Assembly: GCF_900636765.1 (NCBI RefSeq)
Contig: NZ_LR134313.1
Coordinates: 186,001 to 250,000 of the forward strand
Direction of reading: 5' to 3'
Source: Neisseria canis
Lineage (GTDB): Bacteria; Pseudomonadota; Gammaproteobacteria; Burkholderiales; Neisseriaceae
Length of the DNA: 64,000 nucleotides
Part shown: positions 15,419-59,897 of the stretch, piece after piece
Layout of the letters: every line of letters begins with the position of its first letter
Numbering within the stretch: the stretch's first letter is position 1
The notes under the pieces: generated by a model
What the model saw: only the letters and a program-made list of their open reading frames with translations
What the model was told of the DNA's origin: nothing
The model's database searches: none
Made by a program: the position numbers and the translations under genes

Positions 15419-16813
15419 CTACAAACCCGCTTTCAATTCTTTTGCCCGCTTAGGCAACACAAAACGAATCCGCAAGCCGTTGGGGCTGATGTTGTTGGCC
15501 ATAATTTTGCCGCAATGCTGCTCGACAATATGCTTGGTAAGCGCAAGACCCAATCCTGTGCCTTGCTTGTTGGCGCTGCTGTCCGCACGGTAAAACGCGG
15601 TGAAAATATGCGGCAGCTGGTTTTCCGACACTCCCGGGCCGTTATCCGTGATGTCCACCATCCAATTTTTTGAATCCTGATAAATTTTCACCTTAATCGT
15701 GCTGCCTTCCGGGCTGTAATTCATGGCGTTTCGGATAACGTTATCGAATGCGCGGTAAAGGTAACTTTCATTGGCCAAAAGTTTGGCATCTTCCGGCACT
15801 TTTTCCACCACCAATTCCACGGTTTGATGATTCTTCTCCGCCACAGCTTGGCTGTCTTCCACCAAATGACGCAGAAACGGCACCAGCGCCAGATTTTCTT
15901 TTTCCATGGGGATATTGTCGGTTTCCAAGCGCGAAAGCGTCAGCAACTCACCCACCAGCGCATCCATGCGCACCAGCTCGCTTTCCAGGCGCTGCAAATA
16001 TTCGTCCTGCTTTTTCGGCTGAGTCTGAATCAGGCCGACAATAGCCTGCATACGCGCAAGCGGCGAACGCATTTCGTGCGACACATGATGCAAAAGGTGC
16101 CGCTCTTTTTCCACCAGTTTTTGTAACTGTTGCGCCATTTTGTCAAACTGATCGGCCAATTGCGACAATTCGTCATCGCGGTCTGTCATCTGTTGCGAAA
16201 TGCGTGTTTCCAAATCGCCTGCTGCCAGCCTGTTCATACCCCGGCCTAAAATACGGATAGGCTTGGTAATATTGTTGGCCAGAATATATGCCAATAGCAA
16301 ACCCACCACAAAAATAAAGCTCAAGATAATGATTTCGTGCCACACCGGCTCAAGCGGCAGCCCGGGAATAAACAATGGGCTGATCGGGCGCTGAAGCTGG
16401 CGGTTTTTCCAATCACGCACGAAAAACAGATATTCCTCACCCCATCTGTCATACTCAATACGGGCATTTTCCAAATCAACCTGCTTTACCGCCGCATTGC
16501 GCATCGACTCGACCACTTTGGGATCTATCGGCCTGCCCAGCACATCTTTCCGGTTATCGCCGGTAATCATATACACATTTTTAGAAATAGGATGCTCGCT
16601 CCATTCCTGCAATGTGTCTTTCGCACCTTGCGCACCGCGTGCACGGAAGGCCGAAATCATGCTATTAAGCAGCGTGGTTTCCAATACACGCTGCTGCTTG
16701 AAATGGTTTTCCGCAATGGTGTTCTGCACCACCCAGAAAGAAAAACTCGCCACGAATATGGCGCAGATAATCACGGCGCAAAACGTGGCGAATATACGTT
16801 GAAACAGTTTCAT
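15419..16813 (-). CDS. misS: CpxA-type sensor histidine kinase MisS
   Basis: 464 residues. The N-terminal membrane segment covers about 10-30. A periplasmic sensor region runs from about 31 to 155, with a second membrane segment at about 158-180. HAMP (about 180-235) is followed by HisKA with phospho-acceptor H246 in LLHHVSHEMRSPLARMQAI and an ATPase domain with NVIRNAMNYSPEG, DNGPGV and GTGLGLALTKHIV. MisRS is the neisserial envelope-stress system related to CpxRA; it controls disulfide and envelope genes, which fits the neighbouring dsbC. It starts 17 bases after the misR stop. Confidence 0.93.
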   Translation of the reverse strand: MKLFQRIFATFCAVIICAIFVASFSFWVVQNTIAENHFKQQRVLETTLLNSMISAFRARGAQGAKDTLQEWSEHPISKNVYMITGDNRKDVLGRPIDPKVVESMRNAAVKQVDLENARIEYDRWGEEYLFFVRDWKNRQLQRPISPLFIPGLPLEPVWHEIIILSFIFVVGLLLAYILANNITKPIRILGRGMNRLAAGDLETRISQQMTDRDDELSQLADQFDKMAQQLQKLVEKERHLLHHVSHEMRSPLARMQAIVGLIQTQPKKQDEYLQRLESELVRMDALVGELLTLSRLETDNIPMEKENLALVPFLRHLVEDSQAVAEKNHQTVELVVEKVPEDAKLLANESYLYRAFDNVIRNAMNYSPEGSTIKVKIYQDSKNWMVDITDNGPGVSENQLPHIFTAFYRADSSANKQGTGLGLALTKHIVEQHCGKIMANNISPNGLRIRFVLPKRAKELKAGL

Positions 16814-16830
16814 GAACAGTCTGTTTGCTA

Positions 16831-17508
16831 TTAGTTTTTAACAAATAAATAACCCAAACCGCGTACGGTTTGAATCAGAGAAGCATCACCCAATTTATGG
16901 CGGATGCTGGAAATATGTACATCAATACTGCGGTCAAATTTGGCCAGCTTGCGGTCGAGCGCCTCGATAGACAAGGTTTCTTTACTTACCACCTGACCCG
17001 CATGACGCATCAGCACTTCCAACAGATTGAATTCCGTACTGGTCAATTCCAAAGGCTCTTCACCGATGGTTGCCTGACGCTTGGCCGGATACAGAGTAAC
17101 ATTGCTTACTGAAATGCTGTTAGGCGCTGTGCTTTGTTCGGAAGCACTTTGGGCGCGGCGCAAAATGGCGTTGATACGAGCCAAAAGCTCACGCGGCGTA
17201 CACGGCTTGGGCACATAATCATCCGCCCCCATTTCCAAGCCGATGATGCGGTCGATATCGTCACCTTTGGCAGTAAGCATAATCACAGGAATCGTGCTTT
17301 GCGCACGCACGGTTTTCAACACCTCCAAACCGTTCATTTTCGGCATCATAGAATCCAATACAACCACGTCGTAATTGCCGGACAAAATTTCTTGCACACC
17401 TGCTTCACCATCCGGCACGCTATTTACCGACAAACCTTCGGCTGTGAGATATTCGGTCAGAAGCTCGGTTAATAAAGCGTCGTCATCTACCAATAACACA
17501 TGGCTCAT
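16831..17508 (-). CDS. misR: OmpR-family response regulator MisR
   Basis: 225 residues. The receiver domain has the acidic pocket DDD (8-10), phospho-acceptor D52 in VVLDSMMPKMNG, and K in DYVPKPCTPREL. The C-terminal winged helix (about 130-225) includes LTSTEFNLLEVLMRHAGQVVSK and RSIDVHISSIRHKLGD. It is the cognate regulator of the kinase gene immediately downstream and is transcribed first in the pair. The 200 bases upstream hold no other gene and presumably the promoter. Confidence 0.94.
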   Translation of the reverse strand: MSHVLLVDDDALLTELLTEYLTAEGLSVNSVPDGEAGVQEILSGNYDVVVLDSMMPKMNGLEVLKTVRAQSTIPVIMLTAKGDDIDRIIGLEMGADDYVPKPCTPRELLARINAILRRAQSASEQSTAPNSISVSNVTLYPAKRQATIGEEPLELTSTEFNLLEVLMRHAGQVVSKETLSIEALDRKLAKFDRSIDVHISSIRHKLGDASLIQTVRGLGYLFVKN

Positions 17509-17712
17509 TGCATATTTCCTTATCTGGTTGTCTTTAAAATTTTAAGGATGCCTTCCGTTATGAAGGGGCAAAGCTATCTTAACATGCAAGCCTGTATTTT
17601 TGGTAGCATGTCTGCTCGCCCCTTTGCTCTTTTTTGCACGGAATGTCAAGGGCTTTACATAGCAATACTGTGTCAGCCGCCCCTGCCCGCGCCTTTTCAG
17701 ACAGGCATGTTT

Positions 17713-19512
17713 CTATTGCTTGCAAGGCTTGGCATTCGGATTGATTTTGGCATATTCCGCGCAAGCCTGCTCCCACTCCGGCCGCAAACCGGAAAGATGC
17801 GAAGATTTGTCTATCAGGGAACCGTAATACGGCATCTGCATCGGGTAATACTCATACATCATGCGCATCCACCGGCGCCCTGCCGCCTGATGGCCTGTCC
17901 GGTAAAGATACATACCCACCACATGCGCATTGGCATAAGGGCGGAAGACCATCGCCTCCAACGCAGCACCAACCGCCCACGGCTGAAGCTCGGCATCAGC
18001 AGGCGAAACCCGGCGCATCAAAGAAAGCTGCGCATAATAACGTAACATGGGTTCGGTTCTGGCAATTTTCAACATACCGTTGATTTTTTCCTGCTTTTGT
18101 TCAGCGGTTTCCGTTTTCTCGGTGGTGTTGAACTTGACCAATTCGTGATACACCAAACCCAAGCGCACAATGCCCACGATGATAAACACCGACGCAACCG
18201 CCACGCCCCAATTCAGCCATTTAATCTGATGCCTGTCTGAATCGGCTGTCGGTTCAACATCCTGCATACCCAGCATCAGCCCGACCGGCACCAAAAAGTA
18301 TATATACCACAAAGGATATTCCAGCAAAGAGTGACAGAAAGAAATGGAGAGCAAAGCCAAAGGTAAAAAATTTTCATTGCTTACCGGCTTTTTAAAATAA
18401 GGCCACACCACCCAAAGCAAGCCGCCGAATACCAACAACGCACCCACCAAGCCCATGTCCGCCAAAATCTGCAAAACAATATTATGCGTATGCGTATAAA
18501 GCACGCTGGTTTCATCATTACGCCAGCCGGTAGGAAACACATTGGTTAAAAAACTTTGCAGTGAATACGATTCCCAGCCGTGTCCCCATATCGGAGCCGT
18601 CAAAAAGACATGCCACGCGCGTACCCACTCCACTTCGCGCGGGGAAGCAGCAAAATCCTTGCTGCCCATCCGGTCGAGTGCGCTGAAATAATCAATGCCA
18701 ATCAGTGCCATCAGCTTATCAAACGAAAGCTGCACCACCACCACCATAAGCAAAGCAAACAAAAACACCTTAACCGCATGATTGCCTTCACTGCCTCTGC
18801 GCCAGCGCCAAAATACCGCCAACAAAGCCACCGCTGCCACATAGGCAAACAGGCTGCGGGAATTCACCATGCCCATGATTAGCGCCAAATACACGATCAT
18901 AAAGCAGCCGAACCAATTCGACACCCGCCGCTGCGACCACAGAAAAGCGGCGGCCACCACGCCCCACATCAAGTAATGCCCCAAATGGTTACGTTGCGCC
19001 AGCTGACCCATAATATTATTAATATCGCTATACAGCACATAGCCCTTCAAATGCGAAGCCCAGCCGGTAAACTGAATAATGCAAACCAGCGACTGCAGCA
19101 GCGCACCCGTGACCAGCACCGAAGCAAACACCGTAACCACCCGCTCCTGCCCGACTTCCCGAATCCAGCCCCTGCATGCCCAAAGCATCAGCCCAATCAC
19201 CACAAACGACCAGGCCGCCATATCGCTCATACCCGGATAAGGCAGCTCCATAACCCTTGCCTGCACGGCCCAATAAGCAGCCAAAGCAAAAAAATACACG
19301 CTGCCCCGCGGTATCCGCGCACCCAACATTCCCGAAAGCGCACTGCCCAACACAAAAAACAGCGCGAGCAGCAATGAAGCACTTTCCAGATAAAGGCTCG
19401 ACAACGGCCCCGTCCGCCAAATGGACATAAACGGCACGATACAGACAAACGCCAACCCGCACACCAATAAAGTGGTATCGGTTTTACGGCTTTCCACATA
19501 ATCCAAAATCAC
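17713..19512 (-). CDS. pglL: PglL-type O-oligosaccharyltransferase
   Basis: 599 residues with about a dozen membrane segments. It starts at GTG (19512), overlapping the stop of the upstream DUF2069 gene as GTGA. The Wzy_C/PglL signature is present: GQLAQRNHLGHYLMWG, then in the large periplasmic loop SVLYTHTHNIVLQILADMG with H341 and H343, the region of the essential histidine in meningococcal PglL. In this family the enzyme moves lipid-linked sugars to serine/threonine of pilin and other periplasmic proteins. A C-terminal soluble tail ends in Cys-Lys-Gln. Confidence 0.88.
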   Translation of the reverse strand: MILDYVESRKTDTTLLVCGLAFVCIVPFMSIWRTGPLSSLYLESASLLLALFFVLGSALSGMLGARIPRGSVYFFALAAYWAVQARVMELPYPGMSDMAAWSFVVIGLMLWACRGWIREVGQERVVTVFASVLVTGALLQSLVCIIQFTGWASHLKGYVLYSDINNIMGQLAQRNHLGHYLMWGVVAAAFLWSQRRVSNWFGCFMIVYLALIMGMVNSRSLFAYVAAVALLAVFWRWRRGSEGNHAVKVFLFALLMVVVVQLSFDKLMALIGIDYFSALDRMGSKDFAASPREVEWVRAWHVFLTAPIWGHGWESYSLQSFLTNVFPTGWRNDETSVLYTHTHNIVLQILADMGLVGALLVFGGLLWVVWPYFKKPVSNENFLPLALLSISFCHSLLEYPLWYIYFLVPVGLMLGMQDVEPTADSDRHQIKWLNWGVAVASVFIIVGIVRLGLVYHELVKFNTTEKTETAEQKQEKINGMLKIARTEPMLRYYAQLSLMRRVSPADAELQPWAVGAALEAMVFRPYANAHVVGMYLYRTGHQAAGRRWMRMMYEYYPMQMPYYGSLIDKSSHLSGLRPEWEQACAEYAKINPNAKPCKQ

Positions 19513-19865
19513 ACAGCGGCCTTTCTTTTATTTTTCACAAAAGCCAAACAAGCAATAAAAAACACCACGCTCAACACCAACATCAATGCGGCACACACCC
19601 TGCTCAGCGGCTGCACATCAAACAGGCGCATTACCGCTTCGGCAAAATAAATCAAAATCATCATACAAGACCATTGAAAAGTATAGACCTTTCCTTTCAA
19701 CACTCCGGCCAGCGGCAAGCACAAAGGCAAAGCTTTCAAAGCCATCCAAGAGCCGCCCGCGCGCAAAGGCGCCAACCACAGCTCCCAAGCAACACTCAGG
19801 ATAATCATGCCGATCAGGCTGATTGCGGCAGCCGCTTGCGGCCATTGTTTTTCATAATGATTCAT
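19509..19865 (-). CDS. DUF2069 membrane protein
   Basis: 118 residues with four predicted membrane helices (about 13-31, 40-56, 62-80, 88-110) and a basic C-terminus (KNKRKAAV). It fits the small DUF2069 family of unknown function. It overlaps the pglL start by 4 bases, so the two are translationally coupled. No catalytic residue is evident. Confidence 0.75.
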   Translation of the reverse strand: MNHYEKQWPQAAAAISLIGMIILSVAWELWLAPLRAGGSWMALKALPLCLPLAGVLKGKVYTFQWSCMMILIYFAEAVMRLFDVQPLSRVCAALMLVLSVVFFIACLAFVKNKRKAAV

Positions 19866-22119: not shown

Positions 22120-22443
22120 TCAGCTTTCCTGCCGCGCCGCTTTTTCCGCCAGCCCCGACAAACCCTGCCTGCGCGCCAACTCATTTAACACATCTTCAAC
22201 GCGCAAGCCGTGATGCGCCAGCAATACCTGCGTGTGAAACCACAAATCCGCCACTTCGTAAATCAGATGTTCTCCGCCGCCGTCTTTTGAAGCCATCAGC
22301 ACTTCTCCCGCTTCTTCAATCACTTTTTTCAGGATTTTGTCTTCGCCTTTGTGCAGAAGCTGGGCCACATAAGACGTTTCCGGATCTTGGCCTTTGCGGG
22401 AATCGATAACGTTTTGGATTTGGGTTAAAACTTGGTCGGTCAT
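22120..22443 (-). CDS. hisE: Phosphoribosyl-ATP pyrophosphatase
   Basis: 107 residues, second step of histidine synthesis. The MazG-like all-alpha fold shows [12 protein letters not shown] and [14 protein letters not shown], whose acidic residues bind magnesium. It is preceded by hisI on the same strand after a 59-base gap containing a DUS (22491-22504). Here hisI and hisE are separate genes rather than a fused hisIE. Confidence 0.96.
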
Positions 22444-22502
22444 AGTTAGTATTCTCTTGATTTAATTGAACCGCATGGCGGCATACTGATTTCAGACAGG
22501 CA

Positions 22503-22901
22503 TCAACCGTGCGTATGCCCGTAAATCTCTTTTTCGTCTTTCAATACCGCATCTACAATGTGCCATTTGCCATCGCGCCACACGCGGTAAAAACAGCTTT
22601 CACGCCCCGTATGGCAGGCAATACCGCTGGCTTGGTCTATCAGCATAATCACCGCATCGCCGTCGCAATCCAAACGCAGCTCGTGCACTTTTTGCGTATG
22701 CCCCGACTCTTCGCCTTTCATCCATTGCTTTTGGCGCGAACGGCTGTAATAGTGGGCATAACCCGTTTCGGCGGTTTTTTGCAGCGCTTCGTCGTTCATC
22801 CAAGCCACCATCAGCACGCGCAGGGTTTTCGCGTCTTGTGCGATGGCGCAAACTAAGCCTTTTTCATCGAATTTAACGGCATCCAGCAGTGGGTTCGGCA
22901 T
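22503..22901 (-). CDS. hisI: Phosphoribosyl-AMP cyclohydrolase
   Basis: 132 residues, third step of histidine synthesis. Conserved segments are [31 protein letters not shown] and [32 protein letters not shown]; the cysteines and the acidic DCDGD motif bind zinc and magnesium. It is the first gene of hisI-hisE-hinT-tatABC. Just upstream (22917-22928) is the first DUS of the non-wad dialect, which marks the edge of the imported block. Confidence 0.96.
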
Positions 22902-22978
22902 GTTTGTTACTCCTTTTTCAGACGGCCTTGTTGTTACAGGCTTTCTTATACGACATTTTTAAGGTTGGTAATTTTGTC

Positions 22979-24472
22979 TTATATGGACGGCTGTTTATCC
23001 GCCCACGGTTGAATCTGCTCTAATTGCGCCGCCAAGCGCAGCAGTAAATCTTCCCGCCCGTGTGCTGCGGCAAACTGTGTACCTATCGGCAGCCCGTTGT
23101 GCCAAAACAGCGGCACACTCATGGCAGGATTGCCGCTCATATTAAATGGTGCGGTGTAGCCGATGTATTGCAACGTGCACTCGGCTTCTTTCTCAATCAA
23201 GGGGTTTTGTTTCATCAGCCAGCCTAATTTCAACGTGCCGAACAGCAAACGGATGATCTTTTGCTCGGTTTCAGACGGCATGAGTTCGCCGATTTTCGGT
23301 GTGCTACGCGGGCAAATCGGTGTCATTAAGACATCGTAGCGTGTAAAAAACGCTTCGGCGGCGCGCCCCTGTGTCAGCATCACATCACGCGCCCACGCCA
23401 TTTCGCCTGCACTGATTTGCTGTCCTTGTGAAATCAACGCCCAAGTTGTCGGTTCCAACTGGCTGTGATGCAGTTTTTGCCCCGTTGCCTGTTGATGAAG
23501 ATAAAGCAGTTTTGCTGTTTCACCCATCACCAAGACCCTTGCTGCACGGTTGAGTATTTTAGGCGGGGAAAAATCGGGAGAGGCTTCTTCCAAATGATGC
23601 CCTGCATCTGACAACAATTTCAGGCTGTGGGCAAATGCCGCTTGCGTGTCTGCATCATTTTCTCCGCCAAACCACGGCTTCTGCCAAAAAGCGATTTTCA
23701 GACAGCCTGTGTCGTGTTTGAGGCCGTCTGAAAACGATTCGGCAGGTCGGGGGCAGGCATACAGGGCGTGTGTTTGGGTTTGAGCTGCAATATCGAGAAA
23801 CAGGGCGCTGTCGCGCACGCTGCGGGTCAGCACATGTTCGTTGACCAAGCCTTGCCATGCTTCGCTTTGTAACGGTTCAAAGCTGCTGCGGCCACGGCTC
23901 GGTTTCAAGCCGAAGATGCCGCAATTATGGGCGGGCACACGTATCGAACCGCCGCCGTCGCCGCCATGCGCTGCCGGCACAACACCTGCGGCAACGGCTG
24001 CCGCCGAACCGCCGCTGCTGCCGCCCGGTGTATAGCTTAAGTTCCACGGATTACGGGTAATGCCATAGATTTCTGTTTCCGTTACAGGATACGCGCCCCA
24101 TTCCGGCGTGGTGGTTTTACCGAAAATGCGCAACCCCGCATTTAGATAAGCCTGAGTTAAAGCGCTGTTTTGTTTGGCTACATAATTTTTCATCATGCGC
24201 GAACCAGACCATGTGGGCGTGCCTTCCCAATCGGCGATTAAGTCTTTCAATAGAAACGGCACGCCAACCAAAGGCGCATGGGGATTTTCAGACGGCCTCT
24301 GCCATGAAAAAGCCCGTTCGCGCAAATCATGGGCCAATAAATTCAGCTTGGGATTTACCGCGTCTAAACGGTTTAAGGCCGTCTGAAGTACTTCATCGGC
24401 AGATACTTCGCCTTTGCGGATCAACTCTGCCAAGCCGACGGCATCATATTTTCTGTATTCCTCAAACTGCAT
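22979..24472 (-). CDS. Amidase signature family hydrolase
   Basis: 497 residues from the ATG at 24472, chosen for the strong GAGGAG site just upstream; the frame stays open to 24700 but that part overlaps the neighbouring gene. The Ser-cisSer-Lys residues are K76 ([10 protein letters not shown]), the loop GGSSGGS (150-156) and S176 in [14 protein letters not shown]. The sequence around [13 protein letters not shown] resembles the 6-aminohexanoate cyclic dimer hydrolase branch. It should hydrolyse an amide, but the substrate is unknown. The gene contains five canonical-dialect DUS, pointing to acquisition from another Neisseria lineage. Confidence 0.9.
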
Positions 24473-24531
24473 GATTTCTCCTCGTTGTACAGCAGAGCAG
24501 GCCATCGGAAGAATGCCTGTCTGAAAACCAT

Positions 24532-24996
24532 TCACTGCCCGGGCACAAAACTGCCGGTTTTCGCCAAACCGCAGATTTTCCCTTTGCTGTCGGGATAGGC
24601 TTTGCCGTCGTTGCCGCGCATTTGCAGGCCTTTTTCGTGAGCGAAAAACACCATATTGTCGCCCGTTGCATCCAATTGCAGCAGGCCGTCGTCGCGCCAA
24701 AGGAAGATGCCGCGTTTTTCAGACGGCAATACGCCGGCCACTCTGCCGACGTGTCGGGTAGTTAAGCTGTAATGCAGGTTGTCGCGCAAAACGATGGTGG
24801 CTTCGATGTAATCGCAGTCGGCGCAAGGCAGTTCGCCGCGATAGATGCCGACCCAAGAAGCCGAATCTTTGGCGGCAACCGGTGATAAAACTTCGCGTTC
24901 GGCTTGGAGTTCGCTGCTGCGTTCGGGCGTGCAGGCCGTCTGAAATACGGTTAGGGCAAGCAGAATAAAGCGGTAGGATTTTGTGTTCATGTTCAT
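24532..24996 (-). CDS. NlpE-like copper resistance/envelope lipoprotein
   Basis: 154 residues with a lipoprotein signal (lipobox-like TVFQTAC). The domain GIYRGELPCADCDYIEATIVLRDN matches the NlpE N-terminal family with its CxxC motif. In enterobacteria NlpE signals surface sensing and copper stress to CpxA; here the related kinase is MisS at 15.4 kb, though no direct link is shown. Two possible starts (24996, 24990) both precede the signal. It carries two canonical-type DUS. Confidence 0.82.
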   Translation of the reverse strand: MNMNTKSYRFILLALTVFQTACTPERSSELQAEREVLSPVAAKDSASWVGIYRGELPCADCDYIEATIVLRDNLHYSLTTRHVGRVAGVLPSEKRGIFLWRDDGLLQLDATGDNMVFFAHEKGLQMRGNDGKAYPDSKGKICGLAKTGSFVPGQ

Positions 24997-25036
24997 TAAT
25001 TTATCTTTTGAAATCTGTATTTTCAGACGGCCTCAT

Positions 25037-25795
25037 TTACTTCAAAAACGCCGCGGCCACGGCCACAACCGTCATCACAAACAAAATCGTGCGTAAGGTG
25101 TTGGGCGAGAGTTTTAAGGCAATTTTCACGCCGATCATCGAACCGATGGCATTGCCTGCTGCCAGCACAAGGCCGACATCCCACCAAATCTGCCCCTGTA
25201 CGATAAACACGGCCAAAGCCACGACGGTAAACGCCAGCGTGCACACCAGTTTTAAGGCGTTGGCGCGCAGCAGGTTGTAGTGCAGCACGCCCGCCAGCAC
25301 GGGCAGCAGAATAAACGCGGTGCTGGCCTGCACAAAACCGCCGTAAATACCGACGGCAAACAGCAAAACCGCCGCCCCGCGCGTGTCGGACACTTTGCGT
25401 TCCTGCACGTTTTGCGGCGGCAATAAAAGCTGCGGTTTGAGAAAAGTGAGCGTGGCCACGCCGAGAATACAGACGAGCAATGCGGGTTTCAGAATCTGAT
25501 TAGGCAGAACCGAAGCCAACACGGAGCCGACCAAACCGCCGAATATCATCGGCAGCAAAATGCCGCGCAAATCGTGCGTAGGCAACGCGCCGGCGTTTCT
25601 AAACCCGCGGATACCGGTGAGCGACTGGAAAAAAATGCCGACGCGGTTGCTGGCGTTGGCAATGTCGGGCGGCACGCCGAAGGCCATCAACAGCGGCAGA
25701 ATCAGGTTGGAACCGCCGCCCGCCAAAATATTGATGATGCTGGCAAAAATGCCCAGCACGGCAATCGCCGCATAATGCCAAAGGGTTAAATCCAT
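25037..25795 (-). CDS. TSUP family sulfite/anion exporter (TauE/SafE)
   Basis: 252 residues with about eight membrane segments. The N-terminal repeat contains INILAGGGSNLILPLLMAFG and NASNRVGI, and the second repeat contains VQASTAFILLPVLAG and NALKLVCTLAFTVVAL, the pattern of the former DUF81 family. Members move sulfite, sulfoacetate or other organosulfur compounds across the inner membrane; the substrate is not predictable. A canonical DUS lies just after the stop (25022-25033) and a wad DUS just before the start (25811-25824), so the gene spans the junction of dialects. Confidence 0.88.
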   Translation of the reverse strand: MDLTLWHYAAIAVLGIFASIINILAGGGSNLILPLLMAFGVPPDIANASNRVGIFFQSLTGIRGFRNAGALPTHDLRGILLPMIFGGLVGSVLASVLPNQILKPALLVCILGVATLTFLKPQLLLPPQNVQERKVSDTRGAAVLLFAVGIYGGFVQASTAFILLPVLAGVLHYNLLRANALKLVCTLAFTVVALAVFIVQGQIWWDVGLVLAAGNAIGSMIGVKIALKLSPNTLRTILFVMTVVAVAAAFLK

Positions 25796-25822
25796 GCTGC
25801 TCCGATCTTTTTCAGACAGGCA

Positions 25823-56687: not shown

Positions 56688-59600
56688 TTATTTCGTCAAC
56701 CGCGCATGCAGCTCCTGTACGCTGTACACGCCCATGGCGTTCAGGCTCTTCACGCCTTCGCTCATGGCTTCGCCGCCGGCGATGGTGGTGTATTGCGGCA
56801 CGCGCTGGGTAAGCGCGCTGCGGCGGATGCTGTGGCTGTCGGCCACGGCTTGCGGGTCGCTGATGACGGTGTTGACCACCAGCGCGATTTCGCCGTTTTT
56901 AATCGCATCCACGATATGCGGGCGACCTTCCTGCACTTTGTTGACCACCTGCACGCCCACGCCGTACTCTTTCAGGTAGGCAGCGGTGCCGCGGGTGGCG
57001 CACACGCCGTAACCGAGCGATTGGAAGTTTTTCGCGGTTTGAACCACCAGCGGTTTGTCTTCGTCGCGCACGGCGATAAACACTTTGCCCACAGCCGGCA
57101 TGCGTTCGCCCGCGCCGAGTTGGGCTTTCAGGTAGGCTTCGGAGAAGGTTTCGCCCACACCCATCACTTCGCCGGTGGAGCGCATTTCCGGGCCGAGAAT
57201 GGTGTCTACGCCGGGGAATTTGATGAACGGGAACACGGCTTCTTTCACGGCGTAGAAATCCGGAATCACTTCTTTTTCAATGCCTTGCTCTTTCAAGCTG
57301 ATGAGGGCCATGGCGCGTGCGCCCACTTTGGCCAGCGGCACGGAAGTGGCTTTGGAAACGAACGGCACGGTACGCGAAGCACGCGGGTTCACTTCCAGTA
57401 CGAACACCACGCCGTCTTGCACGGCAAACTGTACGTTCATCAAGCCGACCACGTTCAGCGCATAAGCCATCGCTTTGGTTTGGCGGCGGATTTCGTCTTG
57501 AATCTCTTCGGAAAGCGAGTATGGCGGCAGCGAGCAGCCCGAATCGCCCGAGTGGATACCGGCCTGCTCAACGTGTTGCATGATGCCGCCGATCACCACA
57601 TCTTTGCCGTCTGAAACGCAATCTACGTCTACTTCGATGGCGTTGTTTAAGAAGAAATCGAGCAGCACGGGGCTGTCTTCGGAAACCTGCACGGCTTCGC
57701 GCATGTATTTCTGCAACTGTTCGGCAGAATGCACCACCTGCATGGCGCGGCCGCCCAACACATAAGACGGGCGCACCACCAGCGGATAGCCGATTTCTTC
57801 GGCCAGCACCAACGCTTCTTCTTCGTTGCGCGCGGTGCGGTTGGGCGGCTGGCGCAGGCCGAGATCGTTGAGCACTTTTTGGAAGCGTTCGCGGTCTTCG
57901 GCGGCGTCAATCGAATCGGCAGACGTGCCGATGATGTTCACGCCGTTTTCCACCAAAGCGTTGGCCAGTTTCAGTGGCGTTTGGCCGCCGTAATGCACAA
58001 TCACGCCCCACGGGTTTTCGGTGCGCACGATTTCCAGCACATCTTCCAGCGTGAGCGGCTCGAAGTAGAGGCGGTCGGAAGTGTCGAAGTCGGTGGAAAC
58101 GGTTTCGGGGTTGCAGTTCACCATAATGGTTTCAAAACCCGATTCGCGCAGCGCCAGCGCAGCGTGTACGCAGCAATAGTCGAACTCGATACCTTGGCCG
58201 ATGCGGTTGGGGCCGCCGCCGAGAATCATCACTTTGCGTTTTTCAGACGGCCTCGCTTCGCATTCTTCTTCGTAAGTGGAATAGAGATAAGCGGTGTCGG
58301 ATTGGAACTCCGCCGCGCAAGTATCCACGCGCTTGTACACGGGGTGCAGCTTCAAGCCGTAGCGGTGTTCGCGCACTTCTTTTTCGCTTACGTTTAACAA
58401 TTGTGCCAAACGTTTATCTGAAAAGCCTTTGCGTTTCAAACGGCGCAGAGTGGCGTAGTCCAAATCGCTGAGGCTACCTGAAGCCACGGCTGCCTCTTCT
58501 TGAACAATGTCTTCAATCTGCGCCAAGAACCACGGATCAATCGCGCAAATTTCGTGGATGTCTTCCTTGCTGAAACCGGCGCGAAAAGCATCGGCCACAT
58601 ACAGAATGCGCTCTGGGCCGGGGTTGGCCAGCTCGCGGCGGATTTCCGCCTTGTCGGTAGTTTTCGGGTTGAAGCCGCACAAACCGGTTTCCAAGCCGCG
58701 CAGGGCTTTCTGCATCGACTCCTGAATCGTGCGGCCCATCGCCATCACTTCGCCCACCGATTTCATTTGCGTGGTCAGGCGGTCGTCGGCAGCGGGGAAT
58801 TTCTCAAACGCAAAACGCGGGATTTTCGTTACCACATAGTCAATCGAAGGCTCGAAAGACGCAGGCGTGCGGCCGCCGGTGATGTCGTTGCGCAATTCGT
58901 CCAACGTGAAGCCCACCGCCAGTTTTGCCGCCACTTTCGCAATCGGAAAGCCCGTGGCTTTGGAAGCCAGCGCCGAAGAACGGCTCACGCGCGGGTTCAT
59001 CTCAATCACAATCATCTCGCCGTTTTCAGGGTTGATAGCAAACTGCACGTTCGAGCCGCCCGTATCCACGCCGATTTCGCGCAGCACCGCCAGCGAAGCA
59101 TTGCGCATGATTTGGTATTCTTTGTCGGTAAGCGTTTGCGCGGGCGCAACCGTAATCGAGTCGCCGGTATGCACGCCCATCGGGTCGAAGTTTTCAATCG
59201 AACAGATGATGATGCAGTTGTCGTTTTTATCGCGCACCACTTCCATTTCGTACTCTTTCCAGCCGAGCACCGATTGCTCGATCAGCAACTCATGCGTGGG
59301 CGAGGCATCGAAACCGCGTTCGCAAATCGCCAAAAACTCGTCTTTATTGTAGGCAATGCCGCCGCCCGAACCGCCCATGGTAAACGACGGACGGATCAGC
59401 GTAGGAAAGCCTACCTGCTCTTGCGCCGCCAGCGCTTCGTTCATGGTGTGGCACACAAAAGATTTCGGGCAAGAGAGGCCGATTTTTTCCATCGCCTCTT
59501 TAAAGCGGCCGCGGTCTTCCGCTTTATCAATCGCATCTTCCGTTGCGCCGATTAACTCGACGTTATATTTCGCAAGCACACCGTTGCGCGCCAAATCCAG

Positions 59601-59897
59601 CGCACAGTTCAGCGCCGTTTGGCCGCCCATGGTCGGCAGCACCGCATCGGGGCGCTCTTTGGCGATAATCTTTTCCACCGTCTGCCACATAATCGGCTCG
59701 ATATAGGTAACATCGGCCATTTCAGGGTCGGTCATAATCGTGGCGGGGTTGGAATTGACGAGAATGACTTTATAGCCTTCCTCGCGCAAAGCCTTACACG
59801 CTTGTGCGCCGGAATAGTCAAACTCGCAGGCTTGGCCGATTACGATGGGGCCGGCGCCGATGATGAGGATGGATTTTAGGTCGGTACGTTTGGGCAT
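56688..59897 (-). CDS. carB: Carbamoyl-phosphate synthase large subunit
   Basis: 1069 residues with two ATP-grasp halves. The first contains [22 protein letters not shown] and [10 protein letters not shown], the second [21 protein letters not shown] and [18 protein letters not shown]; a regulatory MGS-like domain is at the end. It makes carbamoyl phosphate for pyrimidines and arginine. The partner carA is not adjacent; immediately upstream is an AT-rich foreign gene, 40 bases away. Two uptake sequences inside are of the canonical rather than the wad dialect. Confidence 0.97.
57604..58253. repeat. Canonical-dialect uptake sequences within carB
   Basis: AGGCCGTCTGAA occurs as its complement at 58242-58253, and TTGCCGTCTGAA (one mismatch from AT-DUS) at 57604-57615. 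No wad-type DUS was noticed inside carB. Confidence 0.8.

Follow-up and report, generated by a model that had tools for sequence, protein, structure and literature searches.

A recombination tract probably imported from an AG-dialect Neisseria into the wad-dialect genome of Neisseria canis

The block at positions 22917-25033 of the window (the whole stretch of 64,000 nucleotides of the N. canis genome that was analysed) is, very probably, the AG-DUS-dense core of a recombination tract imported from an AG-dialect Neisseria into a wad-dialect host. The tract appears, from its alignments, to cover about 3.4-3.7 kb, with one end within hisE and the other at the 5′ end of the TSUP gene (Table 1). 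A wad-dialect Neisseria would have taken up DNA of an AG-dialect Neisseria related to G041, G002 and G045; recombination from inside hisE to the TSUP 5′ end would then have replaced the hisI, nlpE and TSUP alleles, and an amidase gene would have been added between the homologous arms. The preliminary description had proposed a transfer between species, and one from an AG-dialect species is strongly supported by a 97% match to G041, a switch at informative sites, dS values and gene trees.

Table 1. Features of the putative imported tract and its edges (window coordinates)
Feature	Position	Strand	Evidence and occurrence elsewhere
Putative imported tract, as aligned to AG-dialect G041	22139..25812		blastn, 96.9% identity; informative-site switch
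hisE (PRA-PH), appears to hold the left breakpoint	22120..22443	-	PF01503; last wad-type site 22180, first AG-type site 22405
wad DUS, hisE-hisI spacer	22491..22502	-	also in AG-dialect G041 and G002 and in wad G025 and G040
hisI (PRA-CH), putatively imported allele	22503..22901	-	PF01502; dS; tree
AG-DUS	22917..22928	-	common to G041 and G027
Amidase-signature protein, 497 aa	22979..24472	-	PF01425; 98.3% DNA identity to G041; apparent gain relative to nearest wad relatives
AT-DUS (ATGCCGTCTGAA)	23270..23281	-	common to G041
AGGCTGTCTGAA, one-mismatch site	23697..23708	-	intact AG-DUS here in G041
AG-DUS	23721..23732	+	common to G041
AG-DUS	24287..24298	-	common to G041
AG-DUS	24376..24387	+	common to G041
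wad DUS	24514..24525	+	common to AG-dialect G041 and N. wadsworthii (G040)
NlpE-like protein gene, putatively replaced allele	24532..24996	-	PF04170; dS
TTGCCGTCTGAA, one base off AT-DUS	24718..24729	-	site scan
AG-DUS	24933..24944	+	also in G041, G002, G027, G045 and wad G025
AG-DUS	25022..25033	-	also in G041, G002, G027, G045 and G025; wad DUS in G040
TSUP (TauE/SafE) gene, putatively imported allele	25037..25795	-	PF01925; dS; tree
wad DUS at right edge of tract	25811..25822	-	AG-DUS at the same place in G041

Dialect sites in the host genome and in the block

The host genome (G000; one contig of 2,569,389 bases) was compared with 45 other genomes of the genus, among them Neisseria wadsworthii 9715 (G040), Neisseria sp. 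83E34 (G025) and Neisseria sp. MVDL19-042950 (G027). Counted genome-wide, the host carries 2095 copies of the wad DUS, TGCCTGTCTGAA, and 327 copies of the AG-DUS, AGGCCGTCTGAA, and is thus of the wad dialect; about 0.3 AG sites per genome would be expected by chance at 50% G+C. Four of the 45 other genomes are also of the wad type (G025, with 2119 wad sites; G040, 2100; G028, 1920; G029, 1322), and they hold AG sites as well, 235-272 each in G025, G028 and G040 and 23 in G029. The AG-type genomes G041, G002, G027 and G045 have 2549-2886 AG sites and 27-37 wad sites each. The window has 54 wad and seven AG sites, and so uses the wad dialect as a whole, as previously described. Its seventh AG site (58242, minus strand) falls within a large frame at 56688-59897, read by eye as carB. 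A second candidate patch in the window, at 56.7-62.2 kb, holds no wad and one AG site, and is mostly a single frame of 3.2 kb.

AG sites occur at 2.83/kb in the block and at 0.125/kb elsewhere in the host genome; at the genome rate, six or more of them in 2117 bases would have a Poisson P of 4e-7, for a block picked for its density. Thus, the genome-wide count of the 12-mers found no similar density elsewhere. Of the sites first listed for the block, the six copies of AGGCCGTCTGAA, the one AT-DUS, ATGCCGTCTGAA, and the one wad site were all recovered, whereas the one-mismatch sites number two (TTGCCGTCTGAA and AGGCTGTCTGAA) and not one. At the latter, an AG-DUS of G041 is altered by a single base in the host, possibly because an imported site of the foreign dialect has since decayed. 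The block shows no significant shortage of wad sites (one seen, 1.7 expected), and there is no signal in G+C content (block, 0.526; hisI, 0.526; TSUP, 0.567; window, 0.500). Dialect patches can thus expose imports that are invisible to G+C.

The block is not a singular patch, as AG sites cluster elsewhere in the host and the wad relatives hold 23-272 of them. In a sample of 100 of the 171 forward AG sites, taken from the forward strand alone and reaching up to 1.18 Mb, the sites are strongly clustered, forming at least 20 clusters (10-kb linkage), five of which are single sites. Four of five 20-kb control stretches are without an AG site, and the remaining one has four, grouped. Close pairs of unlike DUS in the host stretches examined occur in many orientations, and no rule was seen.

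Extent, ancestry and gene content of the tract

Among the 45 other genomes, only G041 matched the whole 2161-bp query, at 97%. The identity between host and G041 given in Table 1 compares, in blastn, with 72-75% in the matched pieces to the left and 89% in the creA piece to the right; the wad relatives G025 and G040 are 82-89% identical to the host in alignments of at least 4 kb. We defined as informative a column in which one base is common to all AG genomes present and a different one to all wad relatives present. In tatC, tatB, tatA and hit, the host carries the wad base at 102 such sites and the AG base at four, whereas all 23 of those in the segment running from the hisE-hisI spacer through TSUP are of the AG type (flank versus tract, Fisher P 1e-21); farther left, at 15450-19855, the ratio is 273 wad to 55 AG. 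Informative sites are scarce within the tract because the wad relatives carry AG-like alleles there too. Counts are 1:1 in hisE and 4 wad to 1 AG in creA. The left end is placed between 22180 and 22405 by a single informative site on each side; hisE itself hardly fixes it, since, with the exception of G045, every genome compared, of either dialect, has a hisE 93-96% identical to that of the host. On the right, the tract stops shortly after 25797, close to the DUS at 25811. As the blastn pieces covering creA are 89-92% identical to AG species, and the nearest relative of this gene by dS is G045, the right side may be composite. Thus, hisI and TSUP, which had been taken as host flanks of a 2.1-kb block, would both belong to a larger imported tract.

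Comparison of dS values also sets the tract apart. Between the host and AG genomes, dS is 1.0-2.3 in tatC and 0.54-0.57 in hit, against 0.05-0.25 in hisI, 0.135-0.144 in nlpE (four AG genomes) and 0.11-0.28 in TSUP; between the host and N. wadsworthii, it is 0.17 in tatC and 0.06 in hit, against 0.32-0.72 in hisI, nlpE and TSUP. The host hisI is at 0.050 from G002, 0.095 from G041 and 0.315 from G040; its nlpE is at 0.72 from G040; and its TSUP is at 0.109 from G041 and 0.318 from G040. In all three genes the host is nearer to AG species than to G040 and G025, an affinity to the other dialect above that to its own relatives and over a low background, with hisE and creA ambiguous. These data bear on the view that the AG sites are relics of an AG-dialect ancestor of the wad lineage, in patches still unconverted, as might be supposed because each of the five wad-type genomes among the 46 contains such sites (23-327). 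Relics should diverge from AG species as their neighbours do, and neither the contrast in identity to G041 between the tract and the left-hand genes nor the closeness of the host to AG species in hisI, nlpE and TSUP, greater than its closeness to G040 and G025, agrees with this; we regard such an origin as highly improbable.

In the tatC tree (31 of 46 genomes), the host groups with G040, G025 and G029 (ultrafast bootstrap 99-100), and the fifth wad genome, G028, stands apart. In the trees of TSUP (23 rows, with weaker paralogue matches left out) and hisI (30 of 44), it groups instead with G045, G041 and G002 (ultrafast bootstrap 100 and 95), and G040 is weakly paired with the AG-dialect G027; within the TSUP tree, the host is paired with G002 (83/85). 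In the amidase tree (16 of 18 rows, G003 and G032 being left out), it is paired with G041 (100). The tract genes thus do not group with the relatives of the host, as the hypothesis of import had predicted, and hisI, suggested at first as the host yardstick for such trees, turned out to group with AG species itself. No sampled genome is the donor as such, because hisI is nearest to G002, and the amidase and, by dS, TSUP are nearest to G041. An artefact of assembly or contamination has a negligible probability: the host genome is a single contig, listed as 100% complete with 0.03 contamination, and its allele is exactly matched in none of the 45 other genomes.

The five genes of the tract (hisE, hisI, the amidase gene, the NlpE-like gene and TSUP) belong to ordinary chromosomal families, as assigned with Pfam. 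Relatives of nlpE among the named genomes scanned came from three Neisseria and one Acinetobacter. In the wad relatives G025 and G040, each of these genes except the amidase gene has a counterpart in the same position, so that, on this gene comparison, the amidase would be the sole gain relative to the nearest wad relatives and nlpE a replaced allele; the preliminary description, which took both as cargo, was correct for the amidase. The amidase gene is absent from the site in G002, G027, G045, G025 and G040. Homologous flanks surround the site in G002, G045, G027 and G040, where the hisI-nlpE spacer is short; in G025, about 440 bases lie between the aligned parts of this spacer (L026), where the host has the amidase gene. 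The order hisI-amidase-TSUP is found in G003, G016, G034 and G038, and in part (contig ends, or without this TSUP) in G030, G033 and G032, and hisI and TSUP lie about 200 bases or less apart, with no amidase gene, in G028, G017, G043, G015, G044, G001, G009 and G042. The hisI-TSUP interval, which holds the amidase gene in more distant Neisseria too, is thus a slot that some species have occupied and others have not. Of the 46 genomes, 18 (the host among them) gave amidase-length DNA matches; the protein matches PF01425 and scores under the threshold of every one of the 25 NCBIfam models listed. In and around a related amidase gene of the AG-dialect genomes G036, G013, G037 and G024 (L006, L008, L009 and L011) there are mucDUS sites, possibly another import across dialects.

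The replacement of alleles between conserved arms, with one added gene and no mobility gene, fits natural transformation followed by homologous recombination, which is the likeliest mechanism. Delivery by a conjugative element, phage or plasmid would have a precedent in the dialect-mismatched ICEs known in Neisseriaceae (PMC7371117); we consider it very unlikely here, as the tract consists of five chromosomal genes in which homologous alleles were apparently replaced, rather than of a discrete insertion, and none of these five genes, as searched with Pfam, encodes an integrase, a relaxase or a type IV secretion function. AG-dialect DNA could have entered through weak recognition, through wad sites on the donor DNA, or without the help of a DUS. 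The host has two tandem PF16732 (ComP) matches over the cut-off. Its 143-aa ComP candidate, which lies beside a second pilin as the wad-like candidates of G040 and G025 do, resembles by eye those of G040 and G025, and is unlike those of G002 and G027; the candidate ComP of the host may therefore be of the wad type, the entry of AG DNA notwithstanding. Dialect seems to limit gene exchange between species but not to stop it.

Direction of transfer and other AG-rich patches

The transfer most plausibly ran from an AG-dialect to a wad-dialect species, although the direction is not airtight, because G041 and G002 carry wad sites here and the amidase gene could have reached G041 separately. The lone wad site of the block, at 24514, is indeed single; it is no mark of the host, being present in the AG-dialect G041 too. 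G041 thus has two wad sites in its tract, at 22491 and 24514, where 0.05 would be expected, and the second is also found in the N. wadsworthii allele, which is empty of the amidase; both points would suit a transfer from the wad host or a relative of it to G041. That reverse course is nonetheless unlikely, since AG-DUS make up seven of the ten perfect DUS that G041 has in the tract and the TSUP and hisI alleles of the host nest among those of AG species, apart from G040 and G025.

Import into the host was probably not the sole event, and exchange at the locus has probably been repeated, in both directions: the wad sites at 24514 and 22491 in the AG-dialect G041 point to repeated, multidirectional exchange. 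G002 shares the site at 22491. On a count of two wad sites in each genome, the probability of a chance occurrence is 0.001 in G041 and 0.008 in G002. Between N. wadsworthii and the AG-dialect G027, dS is 0.229 in TSUP, against 0.959 in tatC, and the wad-type G025 has AG-DUS in and beside nlpE. Wad species, N. wadsworthii included, carry AG-like alleles at the locus, and the traffic looks two-way.

The host genome seems to carry further imported patches like the tract, and the two other AG-rich patches that were compared look similar to it. One of these, about 345 kb away (G000 556,900-566,100), is 94-97% identical to G045, G002, G041 and G027, except for one G041 piece at 81%; as it is also 91-96% identical to the wad relatives G040 and G025, it shows exchange between the groups and not import into the host alone. 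For an AG-free control stretch, the matches listed that span 380 bases or more show 65-87% identity with the four AG species and 82-95% with the wad relatives. A cluster of wad sites in G002 (78-98 kb) is 89-98% identical to AG-bearing host stretches at 617-657 kb, each side having been selected because it carries foreign sites; 15 of the 20 host stretches compared were selected for AG sites, and those of G002 and G007 for wad sites. At about 623,954-624,013 of the host genome (L162:6954-7013), four DUS on the same strand stand in tandem in the order AG, wad, AG, wad, and G002 has pairs of AG-then-wad sites on the same strand at L179:2350, 7640 and 9672. A long AG-rich region was also seen at 850-930 kb of the host genome (L166-L169), and the large frames of L169 resemble, by eye, Rhs-type proteins in repeated copies.

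It may be asked whether loci that hold sites of both dialects are self-reinforcing hotspots of exchange, where homogenisation would bring identity to about 95% while the background stays at roughly 65-87%. Wad sites on AG-dialect donor DNA would let wad cells take up that DNA, its import would leave AG sites in the wad genome, and AG cells would take these up in turn; if so, the same loci would hold foreign-dialect sites in both groups. We consider this idea doubtful, because of the following results and of statistics that rest on two sites. Wad-bearing stretches of G007 are only 77-88% identical to AG-rich host stretches; L183, which is among them, has 75-79% identity to an AG-free control stretch as well, and another (L182) has no match longer than 400 bases in the host stretches compared. 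The prediction held at one of two places in G041 1,200,001-1,220,000 (L187), one of four stretches taken by position, and picked for its three wad sites. One of these sites falls within a segment of 962 bases whose identity is 94, 93 and 91% to G000, G040 and G025, and 86 and 83% to G028 and G029, and the host has an AG site 24 bases beyond this segment, at 255,629; the two others lie in one place of 77-82% identity, and the other pieces longer than 250 bases are at 66-89%.

Relation to known dialect-mismatched imports

DUS dialects have been proposed as barriers to gene flow between Neisseriaceae, and transformation across other pairs of dialects occurs at levels that track DUS similarity (Frye et al., 2013; PMC3630211); for the effect of the wadDUS on transformation of N. 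wadsworthii, the same paper mentions unpublished evidence. A sharply bounded replacement across dialects, at a locus where both groups carry sites of either dialect, shows a point at which that barrier is leaky, and makes it testable whether a donor fragment must bear the recipient's own DUS for entry. Dialects, dialect-marked islands and the folP case are covered in PMC3630211, PMC7371117, PMC11316581 and PMC3868556; in the literature searched, which includes passages of these four papers, no description of exchange between wad and AG dialects was found, and other papers may contain one.

The folP fragment of N. subflava ATCC 19243, a 7-kb segment with seven mucDUS and one AG-DUS, is missing at the equivalent place in an AG-dialect strain, and the same DUS positions are found in N. 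sicca (Frye et al., 2013; PMC3630211). As in the host tract, the sequence carries DUS of another dialect; the tract differs from the folP case, as reported there, in pairing a wad recipient with AG donor groups, in the evidence of an allele switch, dS and trees, and in that both groups carry sites of the two dialects at the locus. Genomic islands with a mismatched dialect, which reach 36 kb and include ICEs, have also been described (Hughes-Games et al., 2020; PMC7371117). There, too, foreign-dialect DUS mark horizontally acquired DNA and its donor group, whereas the host tract, going by the same account, is distinguished as a short replacement of ordinary chromosomal genes. Imports marked by dialect are thus already known, and the host tract adds to them a wad/AG case.
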